Below, piece after piece: positions 6,688 to 39,578 of a DNA stretch of 51,624 nucleotides (within the stretch, counting starts at the first letter, position 1; the number at the start of each line of letters is the position of its first letter). The notes under the pieces are model-generated. The model was given only the letters and a program-made list of their open reading frames with translations, had not been told where the DNA came from and did no database searches. This DNA comes from Chloroflexota bacterium. GTDB taxonomy: Bacteria > Chloroflexota > Dehalococcoidia > Lucifugimonadales > Australimonadaceae. The stretch lies in assembly GCA_028874795.1 (NCBI GenBank), contig JAPPHT010000067.1:1-51624 (forward strand). The letters run 5' to 3'. The position numbers were made by a program, and so were the translations under genes.

Positions 6688-7150
6688 GTTGGTTCTCCGT
6701 GTGCTGCGGCGGGCGGCATGGTAGTGGGCGTGGGCGCGCTGGGGCAATGGGCGGATGTCACAAACGCTCACCGTGGCAGAGGACCCCGCGCGAGGTTGCG
6801 CCGACGTAGTGCCGCGCCACGTCTCCACCGCGTGACCTGCCCGGTCAGCCTGGATTCCCGCCGTTGGCGCGCTGAAGCGCGGGAATGACGGGTGCTGGCG
6901 CACCGCGTCGGGCGCCCACGAGGGACGCCCCTACACCAGGCCATCCGAGAGATTTCTCGACTCCGCTGCGCTACGCTCGAAATGACAATCCCTCCGCACT
7001 ACCCCCCGCCGGTTCACCTCACGCGCCGCGCTGACGCGCGTCGACCTCTCCCGTGGGGCGAGGGGATCAGGCGCGCCGCACACTGCGGCCCACCGCGCCA
7101 TTCACCCCCATCCCAACCTTCCCCCCTTGACGGGGGAAGGGTTCATGCCA
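6688..7150. repeat. intergenic repeat block between carbamoylase and hydrolase genes
   Basis: The first 150 bp are GC-rich with nothing recognisable. Then come GGATTCCCGCC...GCGGGAATGACGG (6851-6892), a GGGACGCCCCTACACC unit (6909-6940), a GAGAGATTTCTCGACTCCGC...CGAAATGAC unit (6948-6985), and the pair CGCTGACGCGCG...CTCTCCC...GGGGCGAGGGG plus CCCCCATCCCAACC...GGGGGAAGGG (7027-7142). Almost every repeat family of the window appears here once. Confidence 0.75.
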
Positions 7151-7193
7151 GGGACAGCACTCACGCTGGCGTCGGTGTTACGCTTGGCCGGTC

Positions 7194-7970
7194 ATGCCGT
7201 ACCTTGAGATTCCCGGTGCAAGCCTCTGGTACGAAGACACGGGCGGCGAGGGCGCTGCCGTCGTTTTCCTTCATGCCTTCACGGGAAACACCGAGGCGTG
7301 GGAGTACCAGACGCCCGCATTCGCCGACGCCGGCTACCGATGCGTCAGGTACGACCGCAGAGGCTGGGGCCGGTCGCGGGACTTCTCAACCCCGGAACAA
7401 ACGACCTATGCCAGCGATGACTTGCACGCACTCGTGGAGCACCTGGGCCTGCTCCGCTTCCACCTTATCGGCACCGGCGGAGGCGGGTACGTCGCGCTCG
7501 ACTACGCGGTGTCGCACCCGGAGCGACTCGCGAGCCTGGTGGTCGCCTGCAGCGGGGGCCCGATCCAACGGGACCCGGAGTACACAGCGATCGGCGACAG
7601 GTACGGGCGGTTCCCCGGGTTCCAGTCTCTGCCGCCATGGTTCCTCGAGATCGGACCGACATACCGGGTGGCGCACCCGGAGGGCGTCGACCGTTGGTTA
7701 CGGATCGAGCAGGCCAGCCGCCAGGAGGGAGCGCAACGGGAGCGGATGCGCAACGACTTCACACTTGCCCTGCTTGAGACGGTCCGAATGCCAACGCTGA
7801 TGCTCGCAGCGGGCGCCGACCTCTATGCGGCACCGCCCCGGATGCAGGCCACGGCCGACCGCATCCCGGATTGCGAATTCGCGCTCATGCCGGACGCTGG
7901 ACACTCGGCGTACTGGGAGCAGCCGGAGACGTGGAACCGGCTGGTGCTGGAGTTCATCGGAGCGCATTAG
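7194..7970 (+). CDS. alpha/beta-hydrolase fold protein lacking the nucleophile Ser
   Basis: 258 aa, whole alpha/beta-hydrolase length. The oxyanion-side FLHAFTG (about 25-31) and DRRGWGRS are present, and the acid (Asp209, AGADLY) and His237 (DAGHSAYW) are in place. The nucleophile elbow normally reads G-x-S-x-G but here reads G93-T-G-G-G97, so Gly occupies the Ser position. The reading around 7462-7490 is unambiguous in the given sequence. The protein is therefore either a non-hydrolytic member (lyase, oxygenase or binding role) or inactive. A TACGCT box lies 9 nt before ATG 7194 and there is no clear ribosome site, so the leader may be very short. Confidence 0.85.
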   Translation: MPYLEIPGASLWYEDTGGEGAAVVFLHAFTGNTEAWEYQTPAFADAGYRCVRYDRRGWGRSRDFSTPEQTTYASDDLHALVEHLGLLRFHLIGTGGGGYVALDYAVSHPERLASLVVACSGGPIQRDPEYTAIGDRYGRFPGFQSLPPWFLEIGPTYRVAHPEGVDRWLRIEQASRQEGAQRERMRNDFTLALLETVRMPTLMLAAGADLYAAPPRMQATADRIPDCEFALMPDAGHSAYWEQPETWNRLVLEFIGAH

Positions 7971-7985
7971 CTGGCACAGGGCCGC

Positions 7986-8352
7986 GGCCACCTCACCCAA
8001 GGGGCGAGAGGGGAGTCAGGCCGCCCCGCGCCACACCCTGCACTTCACCCCATCCCGACCTTCCCCCGTCAAGGGGGAAGGGGCTAGGCGCCGCAGCCAC
8101 CCTCACCCACGCGCTGACGCGCGTTGCCCTCTCCCAGAGGGCGAGGGGGGAGACGGCCCCGTACCGCGCCGCGCCGTTCACCCCCATCCCAACCTTCCCC
8201 CGTCAAGGGGGAAGGGGCCAGGCGCCGGTCCACTTTCACCCACGCGCTGACGCGCGTTGCCCTCTCCCAAGGGGCGAGGGGAGTCAGGCCGCCCCGCGCC
8301 GCGCCGTTCACCCCCATCCCAACCTTCTCGCATCAAGGGGGACGGGGTCAGG
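7986..8352. repeat. tandem array of a ~130-bp composite repeat
   Basis: About 2.9 units, each made of CCTCACCCA(CGCGCTGACGCGCGTTG)CCTCTCCC..GGGCGAGGGG, then a GCCCCGCGCC linker, then CACCCCCATCCCAACC with the hairpin TTCCCCC...GGGGGAA, then AGGCGCC. The ATCCCAACC anchor recurs at about 8048, 8185 and 8315, roughly 130 bp apart. Units 2 and 3 are near-identical; the first lacks the GCGCTGACGCGC arm. Only low-complexity shadow reading frames cross it. Confidence 0.8.
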
Positions 8353-8555
8353 CGCCCCATTCCACACCCGCTGCGGGGTTCCTGCCTTCGCAGGAACGAC
8401 AGGCCACTCCACTCCCCGCCGGTTCACCCTCACCCGCCGGTGCGCGGCGACCTCTCCCCTCGAGGGAGAGGGCAGCACACACAACCCCACGCCTCTCCCA
8501 GCCGCGTGCCATGCCGGGCACGCCTGGATTCCCGCCGGTGCGGGAAAGACGGATG
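8353..8555. repeat. further dispersed repeats upstream of the AKR stop
   Basis: Contains GGGTTCCTGCCTTCGCAGGAACGAC (8377-8401), CCGGTTCACCCTCACCCGCCGG..CTCTCCCCTCGAGGGAGAGG (8421-8472) and GGATTCCCGCCGGTGCGGGAAAGACGG (8525-8551). The second resembles the first part of the insert inside lhr near 16227. No gene is seen. Confidence 0.75.
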
Positions 8556-9512
8556 CTATCCCGTCCGGCCCACGGCTGCGTCGATGCGGGCGATGAGGGC
8601 AGGATCGAGGGGCGCGGCGGACTCGGCGTCGATGCACTCGCGGAGCTCCTGGCGGTTCTTGACGCCGAGCACGACGGTGCCGATGCCGTCCATCGAGAGG
8701 CTGTAGCAGTGGGCGAGCCACGCCGCGGACCTCCCGGTCTCTGCAGCGATGGCGCGGAAGGGGGCGGCGCGGTCGTAGTCGGCGAGCTCGGAGTGGCCGT
8801 CCGGCAGCGGGCGGTCGATGGCGTCAGTGAGGGCGCCAGCCTGGACGGCGCGGATGCCCATGACGGCGGTCCCGTTGGCGTTGGCGGCGGCGATGATGTC
8901 GCGCGGGCGGGCGGCGATGCCGCCGCGCAGCAGACCGCCGGGGGAGTCGAGCAGGTTGGCGATGCACTGGATGTAGTCGGGTCGGGGGCCGTTGTCCAGC
9001 AGGTGGATGAGGGCGTCGGGCTCGCCGATGCCGGTGAGGCCCCAGTGGCGGACGCGCCCCTCGGCGATGAGGCGCTCGAACGCGGGAGCGACGGCCTCAG
9101 CGACGACGGACGCAGGGGTCAGGCGCTCGTGGCCCTCGCTGCCGAGGGTGATCGCGTTGTGGACGAACATGATGTCGACGTGGTCGAGCCGCATCCGCTC
9201 GAGGCTGCCGTTGAGGCTGGTCGAGAGGTGGTCGTAGACCCGGTCCGGCGGGGTGTCGCCGACGCGGCACTTGGTGGTGACGCGGACGCCCTCGGGCAGC
9301 GCGCCTTCGAACGCCTCGCCGATGACGTTCTCGGCCTCGCCGTTGCCGTAGGAGGGCGCGAGGTCCAGCAGGTCGATGCCGGAGTCGACGGCCTCGCGGA
9401 CGGTGGCGACGCACTCCTCGCGGGTGGTCTCGCCCCATATGCCGGCGATGCCGCCTCCGCCGAGAGTGAGCGCGCTCGCCGCGCCGAGCCTGCCGAATGG
9501 CCGTTGCCGCAT
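8556..9512 (-). CDS. aldo/keto reductase
   Basis: 318 aa from ATG 9512, which has AGGAGATATCCC directly upstream (a longer in-frame start at 9572 lacks this). The (beta/alpha)8 NADP-dependent oxidoreductase signature is present: Asp and Tyr in LLDLAPSYGNGEAENV, Lys in VTTKCR, His in MFVHNA, and a C-terminal GVKNRQEL cofactor loop. It probably reduces or oxidises a sugar or aldehyde, as in D-threo-aldose or L-fucose dehydrogenase-like members; the substrate is not predictable from sequence. It is monocistronic between repeat blocks. Confidence 0.9.
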   Translation of the reverse strand: MRQRPFGRLGAASALTLGGGGIAGIWGETTREECVATVREAVDSGIDLLDLAPSYGNGEAENVIGEAFEGALPEGVRVTTKCRVGDTPPDRVYDHLSTSLNGSLERMRLDHVDIMFVHNAITLGSEGHERLTPASVVAEAVAPAFERLIAEGRVRHWGLTGIGEPDALIHLLDNGPRPDYIQCIANLLDSPGGLLRGGIAARPRDIIAAANANGTAVMGIRAVQAGALTDAIDRPLPDGHSELADYDRAAPFRAIAAETGRSAAWLAHCYSLSMDGIGTVVLGVKNRQELRECIDAESAAPLDPALIARIDAAVGRTG

Positions 9513-9780
9513 GGGATATCTCCTGCGTGGGTGGGGTGTGGGGAGTATCTCACGAGGGTGGGGACGATGCACGGGAAGGGGGTTGAGTCTGTCATGCTGA
9601 GCACAGCCGGAGGCGGAGCCCGCGCTTCAGCGAGCAGCATCCCCTCGGGGAGGGTCTGTGCATGACGGTGCGCCTTCCCGAGAGATCCCTCGACTTCGCT
9701 CGGGATGTCGCATCCCAGCCCTTACCTCAGGACCCGAGCCAGAGCGACGAAGCAGGCGTGGTAGCATGGCCCGTGGCGCC
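9513..9780. repeat. intergenic stretch with one dispersed repeat
   Basis: Between the divergent AKR and DMT genes. A GAGAGATCCCTCGACTTCGCTCGGGATGTC hairpin unit lies at 9681-9710, in the same family as 6948, 11182, 11363 and 41159. GAGCCCGCGCTTCAGCGAGC precedes it. Nothing else is recognisable. Confidence 0.6.
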
Positions 9781-9845
9781 GCCGCGTGAGAGCGAAGCAC
9801 GGCTCCATTCGCACGTTGACGGTCGAGCCCCTCGCGGAGCTGTCT

Positions 9846-10754
9846 ATGACCTGGGTTACGGCGGTGCTGATCAGCACCACGCTGTTCGCCGTGGTGGTGG
9901 TGCTGGACAAGCGCCTCACTACCAATCTGTTCCCCAGCGCGGGCGCGTTCAACGTGGGGTTCGGGGTGATGCAGGCGTGCGTCGCTGTCGTGTACTTCGC
10001 GTTCGTCATCCCCGGCGCAGGTTTCGACGGCGGGTCGGGGATACCGTGGGCGATGGCGAGCGGGCTGTTCTGGGGCCTGGGGCTGTTCTTCTTCTTCCAC
10101 GGGCTGCGCCTGGAGGAGGTGTCCCGCGCGGTGCCGGTGCAGCAGATGGGGCCGGTGTTCGCCGCGGTTGTTGCGGTGCTCTTCCTGGACGAATCCCTGA
10201 CGGCGTTCCAATGGGTGGCGGTGGTATTCGTGATCGGGGGCGCCGTGCTGGTGTCCGCGAGGCCGGAGCAGGGGCTGTTCCGCATCGCGCGGGGCCGCGC
10301 GTTCTTCCTGCTGCTGGCCGGGAGCTTCTCGATGGGGATGGCGTTCGTCGTCAGCGAGCAGGCGACCCGAGAGATGAACGTGTGGGCGATACAGGCGGTG
10401 CGCTCGGCAACTATGTGCGTCAGCATCTTCCTGTTGTCCGCGCGGCCCGTCACCGTGCGTCAGTTCCGCAGCGCATCGCGGAACCTGTACAACCTCTGGA
10501 TGCTGGTGCTGGCGGAGGGAGTGCTGGCGCCCCTGGCGGCGCTGGCGTTCATCATCGCGCTGGACCTGGGGCCGGTGTCGTCGGTGAGCGTGGTGTCGGC
10601 GTCCCGCCCGCTGCTCACGCTCATGCTCGGAGTCGCCTTGAGCACGCGCTACTGGAACGTGCTGAACGAGCCGCTCGACAGGGAGACGTTGGGGTTCAAG
10701 ACGCTCGCGGTGGTGATGATCGTGGGGGGCGTGGGAGTGCTGAGTCTGGGCTGA
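9846..10754 (+). CDS. DMT-superfamily (EamA) transporter
   Basis: 302 aa from ATG 9846, chosen for the GGAG 6 nt upstream over a GTG at 9786 that would add 20 non-hydrophobic residues. There are ten predicted hydrophobic helices forming two EamA repeats, with the typical PVQQMGPVFAAVVAVLFLDE segment closing the first half and SVSVVSASRPLLTLMLGVAL in the second. It is an inner-membrane exporter or importer of small metabolites. It converges on thiS but nothing ties it to thiamine. Confidence 0.88.
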   Translation: MTWVTAVLISTTLFAVVVVLDKRLTTNLFPSAGAFNVGFGVMQACVAVVYFAFVIPGAGFDGGSGIPWAMASGLFWGLGLFFFFHGLRLEEVSRAVPVQQMGPVFAAVVAVLFLDESLTAFQWVAVVFVIGGAVLVSARPEQGLFRIARGRAFFLLLAGSFSMGMAFVVSEQATREMNVWAIQAVRSATMCVSIFLLSARPVTVRQFRSASRNLYNLWMLVLAEGVLAPLAALAFIIALDLGPVSSVSVVSASRPLLTLMLGVALSTRYWNVLNEPLDRETLGFKTLAVVMIVGGVGVLSLG

Positions 10755-10765
10755 GGGGAGGAAGT

Positions 10766-10797
10766 ACAAGGTTCCTGCCTCCGCAGGAACGACGAAG
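10766..10797. repeat. TTCCTGCCTCCGCAGGAACGAC-type palindromic unit
   Basis: GTTCCTGC/GCAGGAAC arms around CTCC, in the gap between the convergent DMT and thiS genes. It is the same family as 8377-8401 and (inverted) 29569-29582. It could double as a bidirectional terminator hairpin. Confidence 0.65.
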
Positions 10798-10802
10798 CGG
10801 GG

Positions 10803-11006
10803 CTAGCCGCCGCCGACGGGGCGGACGATCTCGACGCGGTCGCCGTGCTCCAGCGTTACATCGGCGAATGTGCCGCGCTCGAGCACGTCACCGTTGCGGG
10901 CGACGGCGACGTAGCGCCCGGCGAGGCCGAGCGTGTCGAGGTACTGCGCGATGGTGATGGGCGCGTCAAGCTCGTGCGTCGCGCCGTTGATGGTGAGCGT
11001 GATCAT
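10803..11006 (-). CDS. thiS: sulfur carrier protein ThiS
   Basis: 67 aa, ubiquitin-like beta-grasp, ending in the required Gly-Gly (RPVGGG). Its C-terminus is adenylated and thiocarboxylated, then donates sulfur to ThiG for the thiamine thiazole ring. An AGAAGG site precedes ATG 11006. It lies downstream of thiG and thiE on the same strand but is separated from thiE by a 535-bp repeat block. The ThiF/MoeB-type adenylyltransferase and the thiazole oxidase are not in the window. Confidence 0.9.
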   Translation of the reverse strand: MITLTINGATHELDAPITIAQYLDTLGLAGRYVAVARNGDVLERGTFADVTLEHGDRVEIVRPVGGG

Positions 11007-11071
11007 GGTGGGCAGCCTTCTCCACTAGCGTAACGCCTGGGGGAGCGTTATGCCATCAAGCCTCGTGGGCA

Positions 11072-11435
11072 ACCCTCACCCCCAGCCCCTCTCCCAGCGG
11101 GAGAGGGGAGTCAGGCCCCCCACAGCCCAGCCCTTGGTGAGAGGCTGCTGCGCGCTACGGCGCGGGAACGACCGAGTCCCCGAGAGATGTTTCGACTCCG
11201 CTGCGCTCCGCTCAACATGACAAGGCACACCTCCCACGCTCCGCCCCCGCAGTACCCTCACCCCCAGCCCCTCTCCCAGCGGGAGAGGGGAGTCAGGCAG
11301 CCCACAGCCCGGCCCCTGGTGAGAGGATGCTGCGCGCTACGGCGCGGGAACGACCGAGTCCCCGAGAGATGTTTCGACTCCGCTGCGCTCCGCTCAACAT
11401 GACAAGGCACACCTCCCACGCACCGCCCCGCAGTA
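11072..11435. repeat. tandem duplication of a 182-bp composite repeat
   Basis: Copies at 11072-11253 and 11254-11435, nearly identical. Each runs ACCCTCACCCCCAGCCCC, a CTCTCCCAGCGGGAGAGGGG hairpin, CACAGCCC..., a GCTGCGCGCTACGGCGCGGGAACGAC unit, then GAGAGATGTTTCGACTCCGC...CAACATGAC. The few differences (for example AGGCCCCCC versus AGGCAGCCC) show recent duplication. It sits between thiE and thiS. Confidence 0.85.
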
Positions 11436-11541
11436 CCCTCTCCCTAACCCTCTCCCCTTGTAGGGCGAGGGGACCGAACATCCGGGCCCGTTCATCGCAC
11501 TTCCGCCCACTTACGCAAAGCTCCCCTCGAGAGAGAGGGGA
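11436..11541. repeat. third repeat unit after the 182-bp pair
   Basis: CCCTCTCCCTAACCCTCTCCCC...GTAGGGCGAGGGGACCG (11436-11475) followed by CTCCCCTCGAGAGAGAGGGGATC (11521-11542). The first matches 4622-4668 and the lhr insert at about 18536-18575. With the pair before it, the whole 11007-11541 gap is repeat-derived apart from about 65 bp next to thiS. Confidence 0.7.
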
Positions 11542-14765: not shown

Positions 14766-15173
14766 TCAGGCGGAGACTGGCTGCGGCGCCTCGACGTCGA
14801 CGTAGGCGATCTGCGCGGTGGGCTCTGGGGGGCGCTTGCAGTGCCACGCGAGGTACTCGGCCATCGTTTCGCGGATGAGCGCCTCGACGCGCTTTCGGGT
14901 GTCCGCCGCGGCGACGACCGGGTAGAGATCGGGTGGGCAGGCGCGGTAGCCGTTGGGGGTCTTCTCGATGACGACGGCGTAGCCCTTCACGTCTATGGCG
15001 GAGGAGATGGGTTCGGGGAGGGGTTCGCCATCCTCGAAGTGCAGCTCAAGCGCTTCACGCATGAGGGTGGCAGTCTCCTCCGCCGTATCGGCGGCGGCGA
15101 TGCAGCCGGGAACGTCGGGCGAATACGCGCCGTAGTTCCTGGGGCTCTTTTCTATAACAATCATGTAGCGCAA
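14766..15173 (-). CDS. hicB: HicB-family antitoxin with two HicB repeats
   Basis: 135 aa. Residues 1-50 (MRYMIVIEKSPRNYGAYSPD, VPGCIAAADTAEE) are a classical partial RNase-H-like HicB fold. About residues 64-112 repeat the pattern (GYAVVIEKTPNGYRACPPD). The C-terminus (Pro-rich) has no recognisable DNA-binding domain. The TTG start at 15173 gives the family's M-x-Y N-terminus; ATG 15164 is the alternative. It lies 3 bp after the hicA stop. It should neutralise HicA and repress the operon. Confidence 0.85.
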   Translation of the reverse strand: MRYMIVIEKSPRNYGAYSPDVPGCIAAADTAEETATLMREALELHFEDGEPLPEPISSAIDVKGYAVVIEKTPNGYRACPPDLYPVVAAADTRKRVEALIRETMAEYLAWHCKRPPEPTAQIAYVDVEAPQPVSA

Positions 15174-15176
15174 CGG

Positions 15177-15371
15177 TTATTCCTCGAGGCCAGCCTGCTT
15201 GAGGATGCTCTTCCAGATGTCGGGCCTAACGTCCTTCCCGGGATGCCCCGATATCGTTACCGCCCCTGGCTTGGTCGGATGGTGGAACTTGCGATGGCTT
15301 CCACGAGTGCGGACATGCACCCAACCGTCTTGCTCCACGAGCCAGATCGCTTCTCGTACTTTATGAATCAT
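15177..15371 (-). CDS. hicA: HicA-type mRNA interferase toxin
   Basis: 64 aa from ATG 15371: a small dsRBD-like protein with the catalytic His in TRGSHRKFHHPTKPG and the family C-terminus SILKQAGLEE. It is a ribosome-independent RNase that cuts mRNAs when HicB is lost. The gene order hicA-hicB is canonical. An AAGGCG-like site precedes the ATG. Longer in-frame starts give Arg-rich junk and are rejected. Confidence 0.88.
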   Translation of the reverse strand: MIHKVREAIWLVEQDGWVHVRTRGSHRKFHHPTKPGAVTISGHPGKDVRPDIWKSILKQAGLEE

Positions 15372-15388
15372 ACGCCTTGCCCGCAAGC

Positions 15389-15418
15389 ATCGTAGGAAAC
15401 GCAGTTGCGACCGGACAA
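15389..15418 (-). promoter_or_regulatory. probable hicAB promoter
   Basis: Minus strand TTGTCC (15418-15413), 18-bp spacer, TACGAT (15394-15389), 17 bp upstream of the hicA ATG. Confidence 0.45.
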
Positions 15419-15484
15419 CGGGCGCGTGTCGCAAGCGCCGAGAGGCTTGTGACATCTGCCCGTAGACGCGCACGGCGGGGCTGA

Positions 15485-15490
15485 TAGCAT
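15485..15490 (+). promoter_or_regulatory. -10 box TAGCAT for leaderless lhr
   Basis: TAGCAT-N7-ATG(15498). It overlaps the alternative ATG at 15489, which would then lie upstream of the transcript start. Confidence 0.45.
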
Positions 15491-15497
15491 GCGGAGC

Positions 15498-18400
15498 ATG
15501 AGTCTCGATACGTTCCATCCCATCGTGCGGACGTGGTTCGAGCGGCGGTTCGGCGCCCCGACGGACGCGCAGGCGCTCGGCTGGCCGGCCATAGCGTCCG
15601 GTCGGCATACGCTCATCGCAGCGCCGACGGGTTCCGGCAAGACGCTTGCGGCGTTCCTCACGAGCCTCGACATGCTCGTGAAGCAGGCGTTGGGGGAGGC
15701 AGAGGGGCGAGATTCCCGCTTTCGCGGGAATGACGGAACAGGGCGCGGGAATGACGCGGATGAGAGCGGGGACCAAGCGGGGTTGGCGGACGAGACGCAG
15801 GTGGTGTACGTGTCGCCGCTGAAGGCGCTGGCGAACGACATCCAGCGGAACCTGCTCGCGCCGCTGGAGGAGATACGAGCGCTCGCTGAAGAGATGGGGC
15901 AGCCGCTGCCGGAGATACGCGTCGCCGTGCGGACGGGCGACACGCCGCAGAAGGAGCGGACGCTCCACGCGCGCAGGCCGCCGCACGTGTTCATCACGAC
16001 GCCGGAGTCACTGTACATCCTGCTTACGTCGGAGCGCGGGCGGCATGCGCTCAAGACGACGCGCACGCTGATCCTCGACGAACTGCACGCGGTCGCGCCC
16101 AGCAAGCGTGGGTCGCACCTTGCGCTGTCGGTGGAGCGTCTGTGCCACCTCGCTGAGGGATCGGTCACGCGCATCGGACTGTCGGCGACGCAGAAACCCA
16201 TCGAGGAGATGGCGCGCTTGCTGACGGGTTCACCCTCACCCGCCGCCGGGGTGGCGACCCTTCGGCAGGCTCAGGGCAGGCTCTCTCCCCTCAAGGGAGA
16301 GGTGGGGGGCGAGGTTCCCGCCTTCGCGGGAATGACGGAAAGAGCAGGAATGACGGAAAGAGCAGGAACGACGGCGGACTGCGTGATCGTGGACACGGGG
16401 CACCGGCGCGCGATGGACGTCGCTATCGAGATGCCGCGCGACTTCGAGCTGGGGCCGATCGCGACGCACGAGCAGTGGGCGCAGACGCTTGACCAGGTGG
16501 TGGAGCTCGCGGAGCAGCACCGGACGACGCTCGTGTTCGTGAACACGCGCCGCCTCGTGGAGCGCGTCGCGCATCTGCTTTCGGACCGGCTCGGCGAGGA
16601 GAATGTGGCGGCGCACCACGGGAGCCTCTCGCGGGAGACGCGGTACGACACGGAGCAGCGGCTGAAGGAAGGGCGGGTGCGAGTGTGCGTCGCGAGCGCG
16701 TCGCTGGAGCTGGGGATCGACATCGGCGACATCGACCTCGTCTGCCAGATCGGCTCTCCGCGCAACATCGGCGTCGCGCTGCAGCGGGTCGGGCGCTCCG
16801 GGCACTTCCTCGGCGGCACACCGAAGGGGCGCTTCTTCCCGCTGACGCGCGACGAGCTCGTGGAGACGGTCGCGCTGCTGCGCTGCATCCGCGACGGGGC
16901 GCTGGACGCGCTCCACATCCCGCCGTGGCCGCTGGACGTGCTCGCGCAGCAGGTGGTGGCGTCGTGCGTGATGGAGGAGTGGGACGAGGATGCGCTCTAC
17001 GCACTGCTGACGCGGGCGTACCCGTACCAGGATCTCTCTCGCGAGCGTTTCGACGACGTGGTGCGGATGCTGTCGGAGGGCGTCGCGGGCCGCTGGGGCC
17101 GTACCACGGCCTATCTGCACCGCGACGGCGTCAACCGCAAGGTGAAGGCGCGGCGCGGGGCGCGCATCACGGCGGTCGCGAACGGCGGCGCGATACCGGA
17201 CACGGCGGACTACCGGGTCATCGCGGAGCCGGACGGCACGATGGTGGGGACGGTGAACGAGGACTTCGCCATCGAGAGCATGGCGGGCGATATCTTCCTG
17301 CTTGGCAACACGCCGTGGAAGATACGCCGCATCGAGCAGGGGACCGTGCGCGTGGAGGAGGCGCAGGGACAGCCACCGACGATACCGTTCTGGCTGGGCG
17401 AGGCGCCCGGGCGCACCGTCGAGCTGTCGCACGAGGTGTCGGCGCTTCGGCGCGACGTGGACGAGCGGCTGCACGCGCGGGAGACTGCGCTGGCGCTGGT
17501 GATGGAGAGCGGGGCGTCGTCCGAGGTTGCGGAGCAGGTGGTGGCGTACGTGGAGGAGGGGAAGCGTGTGCTCGGCATCGTGCCGACGGCGGAGAAGATC
17601 GTGGCGGAGCGCTTCTTCGACGAGGCGGGTGGCATGCAGTTGGTGGTCCATTCACCGCTGGGGAGCCGCATCAACCGCGCGTGGGGGCTGGCGCTGCGCA
17701 AGCGCTTCTGCGCCGGGTTCGACTTCGAGCTGCAGGCGGCGGCGACGGACGAGGGCATCAACATCTCGCTCGGGCCGCAGCACTCATTCCCGGTCGAGGA
17801 GGTGTTCAGCTACCTCAAACCGGCGACGGCGGAGGACGTGCTGACCCAGGCCGTGCTGCAGTCGCCCATCTTTCCGCTGCGCTGGCGGTGGACGGCGTCG
17901 CGGTCGCTCGCGCTGCTGCGCCAGGTGGGCGGCAAGCGCGTGCCGACCCCCATCCAGCGGATGCGCTCGGACGACCTGCTCGCAGCGGTGTTCCCCGCGG
18001 CAGCGGCCTGCCAGGACAACATGCCGGTGGGCGGCAGGGTCGAACCGCCGGACCACCCGCTCGTCTTCGAGACGTTACGCGACTGCCTCACCGAGGCCCT
18101 GGACGCTGAGGGGATGGTGGGCGTGCTGGAGGCCATCGAGCGCGGCGAGATCGAGGTGTTCGGGAAGGACACCCTCCAGCCATCGGCGTTCTCTCACCAG
18201 TTGCTGAACGCGATGCCGTACGCGTTCCTGGACGACGCGCCTCTGGAGGAGCGCCGCGCCCGCGCCGTCACGCTCCGCCGCGCTCTGCCGGAGGACGCGC
18301 GGGACCTCGGCGCGCTGAGTCCCGACGCCATCGCGGAGGAGGAGGCGTACGCCTGGCCCGCGATACGCGACGCCGACGAACTGCACGACGCGCTGCTGTC

Positions 18401-19940
18401 GCTCGTGGTGCTGACGGAGGACGACGTCGCGGAGCACCCGGACGATGCGGAGTCGTGGCGCGAGTGGTACGCGTCGTTGGCCGAGGCGGGACGCGTGCGG
18501 ACACTGGAGGCGCCCCGCAGCCCCGACCCCACAGTACCCTCATCCTCGCCCTCTCCCCTCGTAGGGAGAGGGGACCAGGCGGTTGTCTCTCTGTGGCTCG
18601 CCGTCGAGCGCGAAGCGGTCGTGAACGCGGCGTACGAGGATGGCGACGTCGAGGCGGTGGCGGAGGTCGTGCGCGGACGCGCAGAGTCGTCGGGGCCGTT
18701 CACGGTGAGCGGGCTGGCGCAACGGCTGGCGCTGAGTGATGGCGCGGTGTCGCAGGCCGCGATCAGGCTGGAGTCCGAGGGGGTGCTGCTGCGCGGGCGG
18801 TTCCGTCCCGGCGCGACGGATGAGGAGTTCTGCGACCGCCGGATACTGGCGCGCATCCACCGGAGCACCATCGGGCGGCTGCGGCGGGAGATCGAGCCCG
18901 TCCCGGTCGCGAGCTTCATCCGCTTCCTGCTGGAGTGGCAGCACGCCACCCCTGGGACGCGGCTCGCGGGCGACGCGGGACTGATCGAGATCGTCGAGCA
19001 GTTGCAGGGGTTCGAGGCGGCTGCGGCGGCGTGGGAGAGCGGGCTGCTGATGAACCGGCTGACCGACTTCCACGCATCGACGCTCGACGCGCTGACGCTC
19101 GGCGGTGAGTTGGCGTGGGGACGGTTCGCCCGGCGCACCGGTCCTCCCCCGTCCGCTGCGCTGTCGCGGAACGGGCCGGTGACACTCGCGGTGCGGGAGG
19201 ACGTGGCGTGGTTGCTCGACCCGCCGGACCCGGACACCGCGTTCACCGGCGCGGCGGCGGACGTGCTGGCGTACCTGGAGTCGAGCGGAGCGTCGTTCAT
19301 GCCTGACATCGTGCGCGGATCGAGGAGGCTGCCATCGGAGGTTGAGGAAGCGCTCTGGCTGCTGGTCGCGGCGGGACGCGTGACGGCGGACGGGTTCGGC
19401 GCGCTGCGCGGGCTCGTGTCTGGCATCGCCAAGCGCGTGCAGCGGAAGTCGCGCTGGTCAGGCGCGTCGCGAGTCCGGGCGCAGGCCGCGGCGGGCCGTG
19501 CGGGGAGCCGGTGGTCGCTGCTGCAGTCGTCCGTTGCCGAACCGGACGAGGACATGGTCGAGGCCCGGGCGGCGCAGCTGTTGCGGCGCTACGGCGTGAT
19601 GCTGCGCGAACTGCTGGCGCGCGAGCCGATGGCCCCGCCGTGGGGAGCGCTCGTACGGACGTACCGGCGGGCGGAGGCGCGGGGCGAAGTGCGCGGCGGA
19701 CGGTTCGTCGCCGGGCTGGTGGGCGAGCAGTTCGCGTTGCCGGAGGCGGTCGACGCGCTGCGCGCCGTGCACCGCCGCGCGCCGTCCGGCGAGGTCGTGC
19801 GGGTGTCGGGGTCGGACCCGCTGAACCTCGTTGGTGTGCTCACGCCGGGCCAGCGGGTGCCGGCGGTGGTGGGCAACAGCGTGCTCTATCGCGACGGCGC
19901 GCCGGTGTCCGGGGAGGAGTTGGGAGCGGCAGCGGGGTAG
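15498..19940 (+). CDS. lhr: Lhr-family large ATP-dependent helicase with three repeat-derived inserts
   Basis: 1480 aa superfamily-2 helicase. Motif I APTGSGKT is at 42-49, motif II DELH at 194-197, motif III LSATQ at about 225, motif VI QRVGRSGH at about 429, followed by the long Lhr-specific winged-helix and C-terminal regions. Lhr proteins unwind DNA/RNA hybrids and take part in DNA repair. Three stretches do not look like Lhr and translate intergenic repeats: about 70-95 (DSRFRGNDG), 245-293 (SPSPAAGV, RLSPLKGEVGG, VPAFAGMTE) and 1008-1031 (SSSPSPLVGRGDQ). The frame survives all three. I prefer ATG 15498 because TAGCAT lies 7 nt upstream (leaderless); ATG 15489 is in frame. Confidence 0.93.
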   Translation: MSLDTFHPIVRTWFERRFGAPTDAQALGWPAIASGRHTLIAAPTGSGKTLAAFLTSLDMLVKQALGEAEGRDSRFRGNDGTGRGNDADESGDQAGLADETQVVYVSPLKALANDIQRNLLAPLEEIRALAEEMGQPLPEIRVAVRTGDTPQKERTLHARRPPHVFITTPESLYILLTSERGRHALKTTRTLILDELHAVAPSKRGSHLALSVERLCHLAEGSVTRIGLSATQKPIEEMARLLTGSPSPAAGVATLRQAQGRLSPLKGEVGGEVPAFAGMTERAGMTERAGTTADCVIVDTGHRRAMDVAIEMPRDFELGPIATHEQWAQTLDQVVELAEQHRTTLVFVNTRRLVERVAHLLSDRLGEENVAAHHGSLSRETRYDTEQRLKEGRVRVCVASASLELGIDIGDIDLVCQIGSPRNIGVALQRVGRSGHFLGGTPKGRFFPLTRDELVETVALLRCIRDGALDALHIPPWPLDVLAQQVVASCVMEEWDEDALYALLTRAYPYQDLSRERFDDVVRMLSEGVAGRWGRTTAYLHRDGVNRKVKARRGARITAVANGGAIPDTADYRVIAEPDGTMVGTVNEDFAIESMAGDIFLLGNTPWKIRRIEQGTVRVEEAQGQPPTIPFWLGEAPGRTVELSHEVSALRRDVDERLHARETALALVMESGASSEVAEQVVAYVEEGKRVLGIVPTAEKIVAERFFDEAGGMQLVVHSPLGSRINRAWGLALRKRFCAGFDFELQAAATDEGINISLGPQHSFPVEEVFSYLKPATAEDVLTQAVLQSPIFPLRWRWTASRSLALLRQVGGKRVPTPIQRMRSDDLLAAVFPAAAACQDNMPVGGRVEPPDHPLVFETLRDCLTEALDAEGMVGVLEAIERGEIEVFGKDTLQPSAFSHQLLNAMPYAFLDDAPLEERRARAVTLRRALPEDARDLGALSPDAIAEEEAYAWPAIRDADELHDALLSLVVLTEDDVAEHPDDAESWREWYASLAEAGRVRTLEAPRSPDPTVPSSSPSPLVGRGDQAVVSLWLAVEREAVVNAAYEDGDVEAVAEVVRGRAESSGPFTVSGLAQRLALSDGAVSQAAIRLESEGVLLRGRFRPGATDEEFCDRRILARIHRSTIGRLRREIEPVPVASFIRFLLEWQHATPGTRLAGDAGLIEIVEQLQGFEAAAAAWESGLLMNRLTDFHASTLDALTLGGELAWGRFARRTGPPPSAALSRNGPVTLAVREDVAWLLDPPDPDTAFTGAAADVLAYLESSGASFMPDIVRGSRRLPSEVEEALWLLVAAGRVTADGFGALRGLVSGIAKRVQRKSRWSGASRVRAQAAAGRAGSRWSLLQSSVAEPDEDMVEARAAQLLRRYGVMLRELLAREPMAPPWGALVRTYRRAEARGEVRGGRFVAGLVGEQFALPEAVDALRAVHRRAPSGEVVRVSGSDPLNLVGVLTPGQRVPAVVGNSVLYRDGAPVSGEELGAAAG
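15712..15762. repeat. palindromic element inside lhr (insert 1)
   Basis: ATTCCCGC-TTTC-GCGGGAAT (15712-15731), followed by TGACGG and a second half-copy GCGCGGGAATGACG (15742-15755). It is the same family as 6851-6892 and 16315-16332. It is read as DSRFRGNDG... and lies between helicase motifs I and Ia. Confidence 0.85.
16227..16373. repeat. composite repeat inside lhr (insert 2)
   Basis: Several families are joined: GGTTCACCCTCACCCGCCG (as at 8423), TTCGGCAGGCTCAGGGCAGG, CTCTCCCCTCAAGGGAGAGG, and TTCCCGC-CTTC-GCGGGAA-TGACGG (16315-16338) followed by two degenerate GGAATGACGG/GGAACGACGG copies. It adds about 49 residues between motif III and the second RecA domain. Confidence 0.85.
18520..18582. 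repeat. palindromic element inside lhr (insert 3)
   Basis: CCCACAGTACCCTCATCCTC, then CCTCTCCC...GGGAGAGGGGACC. It closely resembles the intergenic units at 4619-4668 and 11430-11475, including the CAGTACCCTC lead-in. It is translated in frame in the C-terminal part of the helicase. Confidence 0.85.
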
Positions 19941-19943
19941 GGG

Positions 19944-20378
19944 TCAGCGCAGCGGGTCTACGACGGTGAGGAAGGGGAAGCGGTAGAAACCTGTATCGCG
20001 GGTGCATATCCGGCTGATGCCGTGCTCCCTCATCAATACCGCCGTGTGCATGTCGTGTACGAAGTTGCCTCGGATGTCCGGGAGTTCCCGGGTGGTCTGC
20101 GCGAGAACTGCCTGGTGGCGTTCAGTCGGGCGTAGAACCGAAATAGCAGGGGATTCGAGCAACATCTGTAAGAAGAGTTGTGCCTCATCGATACGCCACG
20201 GAACCGGCAGGACGCGCGGGTGTGTACTGACCCGCATGAACTCATAGCAGACGCTCCATGTCAGATACGTCGGTGAAGGGCCGGTTCTGGCCTCGTTCAG
20301 CATCCGACGACATGTTTCATGAGCGTCGGCTCCCGGATCAATCGCGTAGAGGAGGATGTTCGTGTCGAAGACGAGCAC
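19944..20378 (-). CDS. vapC: PIN-domain ribonuclease toxin (VapC family)
   Basis: 144 aa. PIN acidic residues: Asp5 (VFDTNILLYAID), Glu46 (CYEFMRVS), Asp109 (FVHDMHTA) and Asp128 (TRDTGF), a full metal-binding set. VapC toxins cleave tRNA or rRNA. The gene's start is 1 bp from the end of the antitoxin gene, so it is co-translated. It converges on lhr with a 3-bp gap. Confidence 0.9.
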   Translation of the reverse strand: MLVFDTNILLYAIDPGADAHETCRRMLNEARTGPSPTYLTWSVCYEFMRVSTHPRVLPVPWRIDEAQLFLQMLLESPAISVLRPTERHQAVLAQTTRELPDIRGNFVHDMHTAVLMREHGISRICTRDTGFYRFPFLTVVDPLR

Positions 20379-20621
20379 TTACTCCTCTTCCTCCATAACC
20401 CGGTAGAGTTCGTCACGGTTGGCCACATCCACCAGGAACGACCCGCCCTTCAGGATCGGCAACGGGGGCAAGGTGTACTCCTTCTCTTCTTCAACGAGAG
20501 GGTCGTCCAGGATACGGCGGAGGCCGGCTTCCACCAGGGCCGAGATGGTCGTCGAACGGCGAGCGGCTTCTTCGCGAAGCCGCTGCATCACCGTATCGTC
20601 TATGTTGAGCGTGGTCTTCAT
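20379..20621 (-). CDS. vapB: ribbon-helix-helix antitoxin (VapB-like)
   Basis: 80 aa. The N-terminus MKTTLNIDDTVMQRLREEAA followed by STTISALVEAGLRRIL is a ribbon-helix-helix DNA-binding domain; the acidic C-terminus (ending MEEEE) should wrap the PIN toxin. I start at ATG 20621, not the in-frame 20657, because the promoter -10 box lies at 20634-20629, which makes the ATG the likely first codon of a leaderless mRNA. A 17-bp palindrome overlaps that promoter. Confidence 0.85.
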   Translation of the reverse strand: MKTTLNIDDTVMQRLREEAARRSTTISALVEAGLRRILDDPLVEEEKEYTLPPLPILKGGSFLVDVANRDELYRVMEEEE

Positions 20622-20628
20622 ATGGAAA

Positions 20629-20657
20629 ACCATACAGGCTGTATGGCTTTCCGTCAA
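20629..20657 (-). promoter_or_regulatory. vapBC promoter with overlapping palindromic operator
   Basis: Minus strand TTGACG (20657-20652), 17-bp spacer, TATGGT (20634-20629), then 7 nt to ATG 20621. The perfect palindrome CCATACAG-G-CTGTATGG (20630-20646) covers the -10 box and the spacer. It is an obvious site for VapB/VapBC autorepression. Confidence 0.75.
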
Positions 20658-35074: not shown

Positions 35075-36907
35075 ATGCCGATACAGGACAGGGACTACTA
35101 CCGCGAGCGTCGGCGTAACTCCCCGGGTGGGTCCGGCGGACACGGTTGCTGCTGGCTCGTTCTTCTGCTGCTCATCGCGGCTATCGGCGGCGGGTACTAC
35201 TGGTATACGCAATACGGGCTGCCAGTCGAGCTCGAGTTTCTGTCCATCCCAACGCCCACACCCCGGGCCGTGCAGCAAGGCGCGCTAACTCCAACTCCTG
35301 ACACCTCGTCTGTCCCGCCTACGTCGACACCGTTCCCCTGCGCCGACCCGACGCCCAGGCCTGATGCCCCAAACGAAATGCCAACGCCGGTGCTGCTGTC
35401 GACACCTGTTCCCGCCGTGACGCCAACGCCTGACTGGCCGCCCGCGCCGCTTACCGACGCCTGGCGCGAATGGGCGAGCGGCTGGAGCAGACAGCAGGTG
35501 GACGCCGCCCTTGCCGAAAGCCTGGCAGTCTTCGACGCAGGGCTGGACGATTTGGAAGACATGCCACAGATCGAAGCGTGCCGCCGCGCTGCTGAGTTCG
35601 AGATGCGCCTCGAGGTAGCCGAGTTCCTCGTGGATGCGCAAGGGCTCGAACGCGAGGCCGTCCCCGGACAAGGTGCCGCCGCTCTCTCCTGGACGATCTG
35701 GCTGCGCCACCAACGGAGTCTGTTCGTCGAGGCAGTGCAGAACCATGCGCCGGTTGCAGAGTGCCGGAGCATCCTTGCAACGCCAACGCCAACGCCAACG
35801 CCAACGGCTACGGCTACTCCTGCGCCGCTTCTACCGACGCCCACACTCGGTCCGCCAACGCCTACGCCGCTGCCGCCCTGTCCCACGGCAACGCCGACCC
35901 CGACTCCCACCGGAACGCCGATAGCGACTGCTACCCCGCCCCCCACCTCTACACCCCGCCCCACGGCGACGCCTACGCCCGTGTCTGAGCAGCAACTTAC
36001 TGCGGGCGAGGTGCAGGAGTTGCGCGTGTATGCGCTCGAACTCATCAACAACGACCGGGCCGCTCATGGCCTGCCGCCCGTTGTCCTTGGCCTGAACGAA
36101 GCCGCCCAACTGCACGCCGAGGACATGCTCAACCACGACTATTTCGGGCACTGGTGGGCGGATGGACGGAAGCCCTACATGGTCTATTCGGAGACCGGGG
36201 GAAGGAGTTACGTCTCCGAGAACGCCGCATCTGACGGCTGGACCGATGAGCGGTGGGAGTCATCCAACTGCGACAGTTTCCTCGTCAACTGCCAGGTCAC
36301 AGGCCCTCGTGATGCCATCAGGGGGGCCCAATGGGACATGACGTACGACGATGCTCACGCGAACTGGGGGCATCGTGACAACATCCTGCGCGCGAGCCAT
36401 CGGGCCGTGAACATCGGCATCGCTTTCAACGGCAGGCGCGTGACGTTCGTCCAGCATTTCGAGGGCGGCGCCGCGGAAGCTCATGCCTTACCCACGCTCT
36501 CGCGTGACGGTACGCTTTCCCTGTCCGTGGCCAAGCGCGAGGCCGGAGTCAGAGTGGGACCGGTGGTCTCCATCTACTATGACCCGCTTCCAACGCCCAA
36601 GACTCCCGCACAGATCGACAGGCTTCATTCCTATTGTGTTGGCGGAGGATTCACGACGTCGTGCGGCGACCCCGTTGCGCGCATACTCGAACCTCCCGGG
36701 CCCGGTTACTTCTACTCGAATCTCGATGCCAATGAGGTGGTCGCCGATAGCTGGAACGAAACAGGTGACACGTTCAGTTTGACTGCCTCCCTGAGCGACC
36801 TTGCCACCAGACCAGGCGTGTATACCGTGAGTGTGTGGCGTGATAGCGCAGGGAGCATATTGGTGGAGCATCTTGTCGCGTTGTCCGTAACTCAACCAGC
36901 GCGGTGA
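35075..36907 (+). CDS. membrane-anchored CAP/SCP-domain protein with Thr-Pro linkers
   Basis: 610 aa. A short basic cytosolic N-terminus is followed by a membrane helix at about 25-46. Next come a first Thr/Pro linker (60-125), a helical domain (about 127-230, DAWREWASGWSRQQVDAAL), and a second Thr/Pro linker (232-305). The CAP/SCP domain lies at about 310-475, with its His-rich pocket (LHAEDMLNHDYFGHW, WGHRDNILRASH). A beta-rich C-terminal domain follows. CAP domains bind sterols or lipids or act in cell-envelope biology. It starts 17 bp after the oxidoreductase gene. Confidence 0.82.
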   Translation: MPIQDRDYYRERRRNSPGGSGGHGCCWLVLLLLIAAIGGGYYWYTQYGLPVELEFLSIPTPTPRAVQQGALTPTPDTSSVPPTSTPFPCADPTPRPDAPNEMPTPVLLSTPVPAVTPTPDWPPAPLTDAWREWASGWSRQQVDAALAESLAVFDAGLDDLEDMPQIEACRRAAEFEMRLEVAEFLVDAQGLEREAVPGQGAAALSWTIWLRHQRSLFVEAVQNHAPVAECRSILATPTPTPTPTATATPAPLLPTPTLGPPTPTPLPPCPTATPTPTPTGTPIATATPPPTSTPRPTATPTPVSEQQLTAGEVQELRVYALELINNDRAAHGLPPVVLGLNEAAQLHAEDMLNHDYFGHWWADGRKPYMVYSETGGRSYVSENAASDGWTDERWESSNCDSFLVNCQVTGPRDAIRGAQWDMTYDDAHANWGHRDNILRASHRAVNIGIAFNGRRVTFVQHFEGGAAEAHALPTLSRDGTLSLSVAKREAGVRVGPVVSIYYDPLPTPKTPAQIDRLHSYCVGGGFTTSCGDPVARILEPPGPGYFYSNLDANEVVADSWNETGDTFSLTASLSDLATRPGVYTVSVWRDSAGSILVEHLVALSVTQPAR

Positions 36908-37019
36908 AGCACCGCGAGGATGCACCCTAAGCTCCTCCGCCGGGGTGGTGGGGGCATGGTAGGCTTATGTACCGCAGATCCTGTGGGACGCGCCCTGAAC
37001 ACCGGAGAAGCGACAGAGT

Positions 37020-39578
37020 ATGACACTGAGCGGGATGCCATCGATCACCTGTTCCCGCTGCGGCAGGGAGTTTCCCCCTCCGCTCTGGGCGGCGCACGCC
37101 CACAGCGAGGAGCGCGCGCGCTGCGTCGAACCGGAGTGCGAGGAGTTCGCGTCCGGCTATGCCATCAGGGGGATGAACCCGCTCTGCGGCGCCCACCTCG
37201 TTGAACGCCATCGTCGCGACCACGAGGTTCGATTTGTGGACGGCGGCGTCTGCAGCATCTGCAATGGTGAGGGACAGCTATCGTCTGAGCGCGCGGGTGG
37301 GGGAACGGAGCGCTGCTCCCTGTGCGAGGGGTCCGGCTATCTGGACGAGGAGACGCTGGCCGGCGAGCGCCAGCGGATGGAAGAGGAGCAGATCGCCGAA
37401 TACCGCCGCCGGTCAGAGATGCGCCGCGAGATAGAGCGTGTCGCACGCCGCCAGCCGGAAGTGGAAGCGCTGAACCGCCGGCGCCGGGAAGAGATCGAGC
37501 GCGCGAGGGCGTTTGAGGAGGCCCGTCTCCAGGCATTGGGATCCCGAAGGGGTGGCGGCGCACGAGGTGGCGGCGGCCCAATCGACTTCGGCCCCGCTCG
37601 CGGTGGCCGTGGCGGCTTCTTTCGCAGGCACTGCCGCATCATAGCGGCGCTTCTGATCCTGGGGGCGCTTGCCGTCGCGGCCGGAGGAGCAGCCGTGACC
37701 TTCCTGGGGACCGATGAAGAGCCCCCAGCGCCGACGCCAACCCCGGAGGCTGCTCCTTCCGCTACTCCCACGCCTATGCCCACGGTCACGCCGACTGCCG
37801 CGCAACCCACGGCAACGCCTACCGTGGCGCCGACTCCAACGCCCACCGCCGTACCCACTGCGACGCCACCTCCTCCTGCGACGCCGGACGCCGCCCCCAC
37901 GGCAACCCCCGTCCCGGAGGACACTCCCACGCCGACCCCGGTGCCCATCGATCCCGAGGCGCTTGCTGCGCTCGTGCGCCCGAGCGTCGTCAAGGTGAAC
38001 ACGGACGCGGCCGCCGGTTCCGGTGTCATCGTGGAGGTTGATGCGCTCGGCAGGGCGGTGGTCCTGACCAACGATCATGTCGTTGGGAGTGATCCCGGCA
38101 TCGTCCGTGTGACCGCCGACAACGGCAGGTCGTACGACGCCACGGTACTCGGCTCCGACAGCGCGAGGGACCTCGCGGCGCTGAGCGTCTGTTGTTCCGA
38201 GTCGTTCCGCGCGGTGGTGCTGAGCGAAAGGACGCCGGCGGTGGGCGCCGCTGTGTTTGCGCTGGGCTACCCGCTGGACAGCGACGCGGCGGTGCTGACG
38301 AGCGGCTCCGTCTCCGGCGTGAACTACGACGAGTTCCTGCGGCGGTGGGAACTGCAGACCGACGCGCCGTTGAACGTCGGCAACAGCGGTGGAGCGCTCA
38401 TCGGAACGGACGGGACGGTTGTGGGCATCACCGCGTTCGCGGTGCGGGAGCTGGGTACGGGAGCGGCGGTCGAGGGGACCGGATTCGCGGTCAGCTCGGA
38501 GACGGTGCTGTCGGTGTTGTCCGCGCTCAAGGCAGGCGCCCGCGTAGAGGTCCCCGGCGACGGGTCGAGGCCCGAGAATGGCCTGGTCGGCTCCTTCGGG
38601 CCGGCCAACGGTGACCTGCCGCATGACAGCGACGAGTTCATCGTGGAGTTCGGAGCGGGGGTCTCGGTCGGTGACTTCGTCGCCACCGCGACCTTCAACA
38701 ATCCGTACCCTGCGGTGTTGAGCGGCTGGGACTACGGGTTCCTGTTCCGGGACGCGGGGCAGTTCAACTTCCACGCGGTCGTCGTGGAGAACCGCAACGA
38801 CGGCGTGCCGATGTGGTTCCACTACCTGCGCGACGGAGCAGGCGACGGACTGCTGCTCGGGAGCGGCAGGGCGTCCGGTCTGTGGCCGGACTCGGGAGGC
38901 CTGAACACCCTGCGCCTCATCGCCATCGGCCCCCAGGGCTGGCTCTTCATCAACGGCCGCGCGGTCGGGACGCTGGACCTGAGCGTCGGTCCGACCGGGG
39001 GAGACGTCTCGGTGGTCACGGGCTACCACATCGAGAACAAGGTCGCCGGGCAAACGACGCGCTTCCTGGGGTTCGAGGTCTCCCAGCCGGAATCGCTGGG
39101 TACGGACTCCGGCTCGCTGGAGCAGGCAGAGGACGGGGCCATCAAGTTGGCCCGCATCGGCTCGGAGGCAGGCGACTTCATGGCTGTCGCAACGTTCACG
39201 AACCCGGGGGCCAACGTCGGTTCGTGGGACTACGGGTTCGTCTTCAGAGAGTCCGGGCCGAACGTTTTCAGTGCCGTTTACGTCGACAGCGATGAGCAAT
39301 GGAACCACCTGCTGGGGACGGGCGGGAGACAGCCCGCGTTCACGAGGTCAGGGGACCTGCGGCTGAATACGGAGGCCGGAGAGCGGAATGCCCTGGTGCT
39401 GCTGGCGATCGGCGACGTGGGCCTGTTCTACGTGAACGGTGTCCTCGTGCAGGAGTTGGAACTGAGCGAGGGTGAGGCGGACGGCGCCGTCGCTGTTGCA
39501 TCCGGGTTCTCCGAAGAGACCCGGACGCCGGGACAGACGGTCGGTTACGCAGGGTTCGCCGTGTGGGCGCTGGACTGA
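37020..39578 (+). CDS. membrane-spanning trypsin-like serine protease with cytosolic zinc-ribbon and two lectin-like repeats
   Basis: 852 aa. The cytosolic part has Cys pairs C11/C14, C36/C41, and a DnaJ-like zinc ribbon C78/C81-C99/C102 (CSICNGEG, CSLCEGSG), then a charged coiled coil (110-175). A membrane helix (206-229) and a Thr/Pro linker (235-312) follow. The HtrA-like protease domain has the complete triad His353 (TNDHVVG), Asp384 (ARDLAAL) and Ser456 (VGNSGGAL). No PDZ is seen; instead two tandem beta-sandwich repeats (about 530-690 and 705-852), each with a WDYGF(L/V)FR motif and an (L/Y)(F/V)NG(R/V) strand. A zinc-ribbon sensor inside and a protease outside is unusual. Confidence 0.8.
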   Translation: MTLSGMPSITCSRCGREFPPPLWAAHAHSEERARCVEPECEEFASGYAIRGMNPLCGAHLVERHRRDHEVRFVDGGVCSICNGEGQLSSERAGGGTERCSLCEGSGYLDEETLAGERQRMEEEQIAEYRRRSEMRREIERVARRQPEVEALNRRRREEIERARAFEEARLQALGSRRGGGARGGGGPIDFGPARGGRGGFFRRHCRIIAALLILGALAVAAGGAAVTFLGTDEEPPAPTPTPEAAPSATPTPMPTVTPTAAQPTATPTVAPTPTPTAVPTATPPPPATPDAAPTATPVPEDTPTPTPVPIDPEALAALVRPSVVKVNTDAAAGSGVIVEVDALGRAVVLTNDHVVGSDPGIVRVTADNGRSYDATVLGSDSARDLAALSVCCSESFRAVVLSERTPAVGAAVFALGYPLDSDAAVLTSGSVSGVNYDEFLRRWELQTDAPLNVGNSGGALIGTDGTVVGITAFAVRELGTGAAVEGTGFAVSSETVLSVLSALKAGARVEVPGDGSRPENGLVGSFGPANGDLPHDSDEFIVEFGAGVSVGDFVATATFNNPYPAVLSGWDYGFLFRDAGQFNFHAVVVENRNDGVPMWFHYLRDGAGDGLLLGSGRASGLWPDSGGLNTLRLIAIGPQGWLFINGRAVGTLDLSVGPTGGDVSVVTGYHIENKVAGQTTRFLGFEVSQPESLGTDSGSLEQAEDGAIKLARIGSEAGDFMAVATFTNPGANVGSWDYGFVFRESGPNVFSAVYVDSDEQWNHLLGTGGRQPAFTRSGDLRLNTEAGERNALVLLAIGDVGLFYVNGVLVQELELSEGEADGAVAVASGFSEETRTPGQTVGYAGFAVWALD

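Follow-up and report, generated by a model that had tools for sequence, protein, structure and literature searches.

Three loops of the Lhr helicase have probably captured dispersed intergenic repeats repeatedly in a SAR202-type Chloroflexota genus

Dispersed repeats within the lhr reading frame

Three permissive surface loops of the large helicase-related protein, Lhr, of a SAR202-type Chloroflexota bacterium have very probably captured short dispersed intergenic repeats, and have done so repeatedly. The stretch of DNA analyzed here (the window; 51,624 nucleotides) is contig 12 of a 3.33-Mb MAG (90 contigs, 97% complete) whose nearest relatives are SAR202/Dehalococcoidia MAGs. Its Lhr is full length, with Pfam matches to DEAD, Helicase_C, WH_Lhr, DEAD_assoc, and WH3/WH4_Lhr, and a model of residues 1 to 1200 has as its best structural match the solved Lhr of M. 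smegmatis (5v9x; E = 2.8e-60). The preliminary description of this DNA had proposed that three intergenic repeats lie in frame within an lhr gene that stays open, and both the reading of the open reading frame, which is uninterrupted across all three repeat-derived segments, and genome-wide repeat counts bear this out. The features of the gene are listed by window position.

15489..19940, + strand: lhr, large helicase-related protein, 1483 codons (Pfam and fold match)
15701..15766, + strand: site 1 insert, in the loop of about residues 70 to 98, motif I to motif Ia
15712..15735, - strand: CGTC-1 REP in site 1, CGTC / ATTCCCGC / GAAA / GCGGGAAT, tail CTC
15745..15756, - strand: degenerate half-copy GCGGGAATGACG of the site 1 CGTC-1 REP
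16231..16379, + strand: site 2 composite insert, in the loop of about residues 248 to 296, motif III to the second RecA domain
16259..16280, + strand: dispersed element CCTTCGGCAGGCTCAGGGCAGG in site 2 (37 strand-matches at up to 3 mismatches)
16282..16302, no strand assigned: CTCTCCC/GGGAGAG palindrome in site 2, letters TCTCTCCCCTCAAGGGAGAGG, reading LSPLKGEV
16314..16336, - strand: second CGTC-1 REP, in site 2, letters GTTCCCGCCTTCGCGGGAATGAC, + reading VPAFAGMT
18515..18580, + strand: site 3 insert, in the beta-hairpin loop of about residues 1010 to 1031
18550..18571, no strand assigned: site 3 palindrome CCTCTCCC...GGGAGAGG, reading SPSPLVGRGD; repeat families D6 and D15

The + strand letters of the site 1 REP are ATTCCCGCTTTCGCGGGAATGACG, read as DSRFRGND. 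This peptide and VPAFAGMT of site 2 come from one element in one orientation, translated in two different frames; the element is open in five of six frames. Site 2 had been described as a composite, which it is, although its makeup proved richer, with three repeat families plus degenerate half-copies: a patchwork of the CTCTCCC palindrome, the CTTCGGCAGGCTCAGG element, and the CGTC REP, followed by the half-copies AGGAATGACGG and AGGAACGACGG. The CTCTCCC palindrome of site 3 has the letters CCTCTCCCCTCGTAGGGAGAGG. All of these repeats are dispersed in the genome far above chance. Allowing up to 3 mismatches, the ATTCCCGC element has 229 strand-matches genome-wide and its backward control 0, the CTCTCCC palindrome occurs at 137 sites against 12 in the control, and the CCTTCGGCAGGCTCAGGGCAGG matches compare with 0 in the control. 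For the CCCTCACCC pattern the backward control tells nothing, since this pattern looks like the element when reversed.

An Rfam search of the window returned no match. The flanks of lhr (14766 to 15500 and 19944 to 20657) hold HicAB- and VapBC-like toxin-antitoxin pairs, as judged from translations read by eye. Elsewhere in the window are a 176-bp direct duplication (97%; 11072 to 11429) within a repeat-dense region at about 6900 to 11500, and two stretches of short CCNACGCC-type repeats (35777 to 37867) that are probably Thr/Pro-rich linkers. Another contig of the genome carries a Cas9-like gene, an open reading frame with RuvC_III, HNH_4, and Cas9_a Pfam matches (L076:4409-7000, + strand).

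Identity of the main element

The ATTCCCGC element is a CGTC-1 REP, with the tag, stem, loop, and tail of the published definition and no Y1-type transposase in the window's genome. We took a census of 150 oriented copies from 473 kb of sequence sampled around copies, a choice biased to repeat-rich places. The consensus is CGTC-ATTCCCGC-NNNN-GCGGGAAT-CCA, with an 8-bp stem starting AT and a 4-nt loop; the search was made with the 20-nt core, which partly presets the lengths of stem and loop and has no bearing on tag or tail. The unpaired CGTC tag is present in 140 of the 150 copies and TGTC in 5 more; the tail is CCA in 102 and CTC in 28. The CTC-tail subset, to which both lhr copies belong, has an extended border, GGGNTGCGAG. 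A GTAG REP mobilized by a RAYT is not what we found, as the tag is CGTC and a profile search of the window's genome returned no Y1_Tnp (the RAYT family). The CTCTCCC element appears to be a palindrome without a tag, neither CGTC nor GTAG being seen in copies read by eye, and is not a relative of the Rickettsia palindromic elements (RPEs) by any test made.

The CGTC-1 class (Di Nocera et al. 2013, PMC3733652) includes Neisseria dRS3 and R. conorii RPE-6. The likeness to Rickettsia drawn in the preliminary description is thus supported, and for the ATTCCCGC element it comes close to membership. In function, too, the lhr repeats behave as RPEs do, being in-frame insertions in the gene of a functional protein that are absent in relatives.

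Presence, absence, and replacement among sister species

We aligned the lhr DNA of the window with that of five other MAGs of the genus, which are about 89 to 92% identical to it (outgroup G001, 79%); all genus genomes used are draft MAGs except G001. Across these sister species, repeats in the lhr loops are present, absent, or replaced by others. Site 1 is empty in L039, L041, and L040, holds the same REP as the window in L058, and has a CTCTCCC-type repeat in its place in L049. Site 2 is empty in L040 and nearly so in L041; L039 and L058 have the REP there but none of the other elements, and L049 has a composite unlike that of the window. At site 3 the loops of L039 and L057 are empty, L041 has CTCTCCC plus a REP, L040 a GCAGGGGGC tract, and L049 other mixtures. 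When the window is compared with L039, L041, or L040, the three sites are the only places with internal lhr indels, and every net indel is divisible by three (for sites 1, 2, and 3, respectively, 66, 69, and 66 nt in L039; 66, 123, and 81 nt in L041; 78, 138, and 24 nt in L040). The five sisters branch in no clear order, which prevents a tally of gains and losses.

False joins caused by repeats within lhr during assembly of the metagenome bin would be one explanation, and the 90-contig MAG and a relative with artefactual poly-G duplications in lhr (G003) might be taken to favor it. We regard it as very improbable. Inserts are shared with other, independent MAGs and differ from theirs by point differences (site 1 with G002, the site 2 REP with G004/L039 and G002, and site 3 with G005/L041), which makes misassembly unlikely, and the frame is kept throughout. 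The lhr gene of G003 (L049, MPMJ01000038.1) has its frame disrupted at several places by poly-G-rich partial duplications; we rejected insertional inactivation for these breaks, which are best read as assembly errors. Such errors are suspected in the E2 gene of this assembly as well.

Lhr loops in other lineages

A wider comparison covered Lhr from Chloroflexota, Gammaproteobacteria, and Melainabacteria. In the window, the loops at sites 1, 2, and 3 span 55, 76, and 64 aa, against about 28 to 37, 30 to 40, and 39 to 51 aa in most other Lhr of the three phyla (at site 1, mostly 28 to 29 aa). The insert segments are absent from several sisters and from most other Lhr, and a search across the three phyla for the same residues in Lhr of unrelated lineages did not find them. 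The short loops elsewhere suggest that the direction of change was gain rather than loss. That the segments belong to the conserved structure of Lhr and resemble repeats by chance is scarcely credible: they are missing from nearly all other Lhr, exact copies lie elsewhere in the genome, and we found no point in its support.

From sequence comparison, at least three groups appear to have acquired repeats at site 2 independently. In L011 and L043 this loop is 72 aa long with CTCTCCC-type sequence, which L042, of the same genus, does not have; in L017 it is 67 aa long with a ATTCCGGC TTTC GCCGGAAT palindrome, which is missing from L018. The latter palindrome occurs at 15 sites in the genome of L017 (G021), one of them within lhr. 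L015 also has a long site 2 loop, without a recognized repeat.

Predicted fold and selection on the inserts

In an AlphaFold model of Lhr (30 sequences, mean pLDDT 76, pTM 0.75), residues 71 to 96, 251 to 295, and 1017 to 1029 lack secondary structure and score below 50 in pLDDT. The site 1 loop connects a helix (51 to 67) with a strand (105 to 108), the site 2 loop a helix (238 to 246) with a strand (299 to 302), and the site 3 loop two strands (1003 to 1009 and 1032 to 1038). The three inserts are among the stretches modeled with the lowest confidence (a further long low stretch, 910 to 937, is not an insert), and they are predicted to be disordered loops.

The backbone of lhr has a dN/dS of 0.04 to 0.11. 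For the inserts, dN/dS is 0.51 at site 1, 0.51 and 2.27 at site 2, and 1.39 at site 3, over 26 to 29 shared codons each, which suggests that the insert peptides drift near neutrally. Together with the use of one element in two frames of one protein, this argues against selection for the insert peptide. From the open frame and low backbone dN/dS, the inserts are probably translated. The proposal that the repeats sit in tolerated loops is thus supported by absence in relatives, predicted disorder, and drift, and their creation of new protein segments is supported at the level of sequence.

Domestication of the inserts, with an altered Lhr function such as the rate of DNA repair, seems improbable. 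Lhr is a repair-type nucleic-acid helicase, the inserts have kept the frame across about 10% divergence in DNA, and many REPs lie in repair genes, including copies inside uvrA, uvrB, recB, and other genes, for which an altered function has been speculated upon (Di Nocera et al. 2013, PMC3733652). Against this, the peptides vary in sequence, frame, and repeat family among sisters and show near-neutral dN/dS, and E2 acyltransferase, TyrRS, and IleRS carry REPs too, so repair is not special.

Repeats in other proteins

E2 acyltransferase and TyrRS show the pattern of lhr in the sister species. The E2 acyltransferase (P0004; domains at 15 to 87, 237 to 270, and 449 to 674) has one REP in each interdomain linker, VVPAQAGT at 114 and VIPAPAGI at 376, and the number of REPs in these linkers varies among sisters. 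TyrRS (P0005) carries SSVIPAKAGISS near residue 393, in a loop that is short in G003, G004, and G005 and holds a different repeat, STSPSTGEVARSAGEGG, in G002. IleRS has a REP close to its C terminus. Well-supported genes contain at least 6 of the 150 sampled REP copies, a lower bound given an imperfect gene search.

In most members of the genus, E2 linkers (L083:9035-11074, - strand; L123 to L133) carry lineage-specific REP and CTCTCCC peptides such as VIPAQAGIQ and PLSLEGRGRAESAGEGE; E2 is the most decorated protein that we saw. Gene finding by codon score ranked lhr site 1 wrongly and called long open reading frames on the antisense strand, L115 (2028 aa) and L091, which were discarded as having no Pfam match. 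The repeats of L080 and L094 were rejected as intragenic, being upstream of the likely start codon.

Junctions, copy number, and route of entry

The preliminary description inferred that the repeats are mobile and looked to clean junctions and a small target duplication; neither was seen, and transposition machinery is unsupported. In the lhr and TyrRS alignments junctions are messy, with loop bases replaced as well as added, so that single insertion events cannot be reconstructed, and nowhere do an empty and a filled site differ by the repeat alone. Flanking direct repeats, the target-site duplications expected of a MITE, showed no clear excess at any offset, in a test weakened by the loosely defined borders of the unit. 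Y1_Tnp is absent from 15 of 16 genomes of the family, with one partial match.

Copy number differs widely within the genus, from 81 to 1501 strand-matches of the CGTC REP. The highest count is in G001 (OY282355.1, L148 to L167), a closed 2.5-Mb chromosome without a Y1_Tnp match; symmetric copies are counted twice in this figure, and a 400-kb sample holds 161 distinct sites. Many G001 copies are symmetric, with the tag at both ends, and stand in tandem-like arrays about 38 nt apart. In the order, CGTC-1 copies are patchy, being present in 43 of 147 genomes; G029, G148, and G126 have 721, 189, and 160 strand-matches, and their close relatives few or none. This variation shows turnover, not its route.

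As to route, one serious candidate, to which we give slightly less than an even chance, is that transposition played no part: recombination, template switching, or gap repair between GC-rich loop sequence and repeat copies elsewhere would have brought the repeats in, and slippage and gene conversion among repeats would account for later changes. Messy junctions with replaced loop bases, the mosaic of families and half-copies, and the lack of a target duplication or Y1 transposase all speak for such entry, which is compatible with the rest of our preferred explanation. The ends of the CGTC REP, however, are sharp and conserved over many dispersed copies, as expected for a unit copied whole, and the differences in copy number among species of one genus also count against it. 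More tentatively, we consider it possible that unrelated short repeats are continually inserted and swapped by a RAYT-independent process in this clade and that certain protein loops serve as recurrent landing sites, so that core enzymes would gain, lose, and exchange disordered segments on a within-genus time scale.

Capture by permissive loops, the explanation that we prefer, would proceed as follows. Repeats, mainly the CGTC-1 REP but also the apparently untagged CTCTCCC palindrome and the CTTCGGCAGGCTCAGG element, would arrive by a RAYT-independent route. Copies in frame and between secondary-structure elements would survive selection, and most other intragenic copies would be lost, as the small number of intragenic copies found suggests. 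Those retained would be translated as disordered, near-neutral spacers, which may accumulate mutations, lengthen as other repeats nest within them, and disappear again.

Relation to known systems and implications

Literature searches on SAR202 repeats returned nothing on the point. The elements described here share with published CGTC-1 REPs the CGTC tag, 8-bp AT-starting stem, 4-nt loop, and CCA-type tail, a high copy number, a mostly intergenic location, no associated transposase, and some copies in frame within DNA repair genes (PMC3733652). They differ in their host, as the phyla reported there to have CGTC repeats are Proteobacteria, Chlorobi, Bacteroidetes, Spirochaetes, and Thermotogae and do not include Chloroflexi, and in that about a fifth of sampled copies have the CTCG tail and GGGNTGCGAG border of the lhr type. 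As with RPE-1 and other Rickettsia palindromic elements, copies lie in frame in unrelated functional proteins, at fold-compatible sites, and give new peptides, but RPE-1-type elements are described as longer (about 150 bp), whereas here short units of several families form composites in one loop. In the sister species Xanthomonas campestris and X. oryzae, different REPs likewise occupy about the same permissive site of the repair gene recB (PMC3733652); unlike that case, lhr involves three loops of one gene, several unrelated families, and five sister species as well as other genera. Enterobacterial RU/ERIC-type MITEs are likewise small dispersed elements that serve as in-frame protein parts (Delihas 2007, PMC2759123), but they are MITE-like units of 103 to 168 bp, and no long terminal repeats or target duplications were seen here.

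Intragenic REPs are already known, and what lhr adds is a well-resolved example from a new group. The sister genomes take the observation beyond one genome, to non-coding repeats that become protein segments in the same loops repeatedly and from several repeat families. The CGTC REP class is extended to Chloroflexota, and genomes such as G001, with many hundreds of copies and no detectable Y1 transposase, offer material for asking what moves CGTC REPs.
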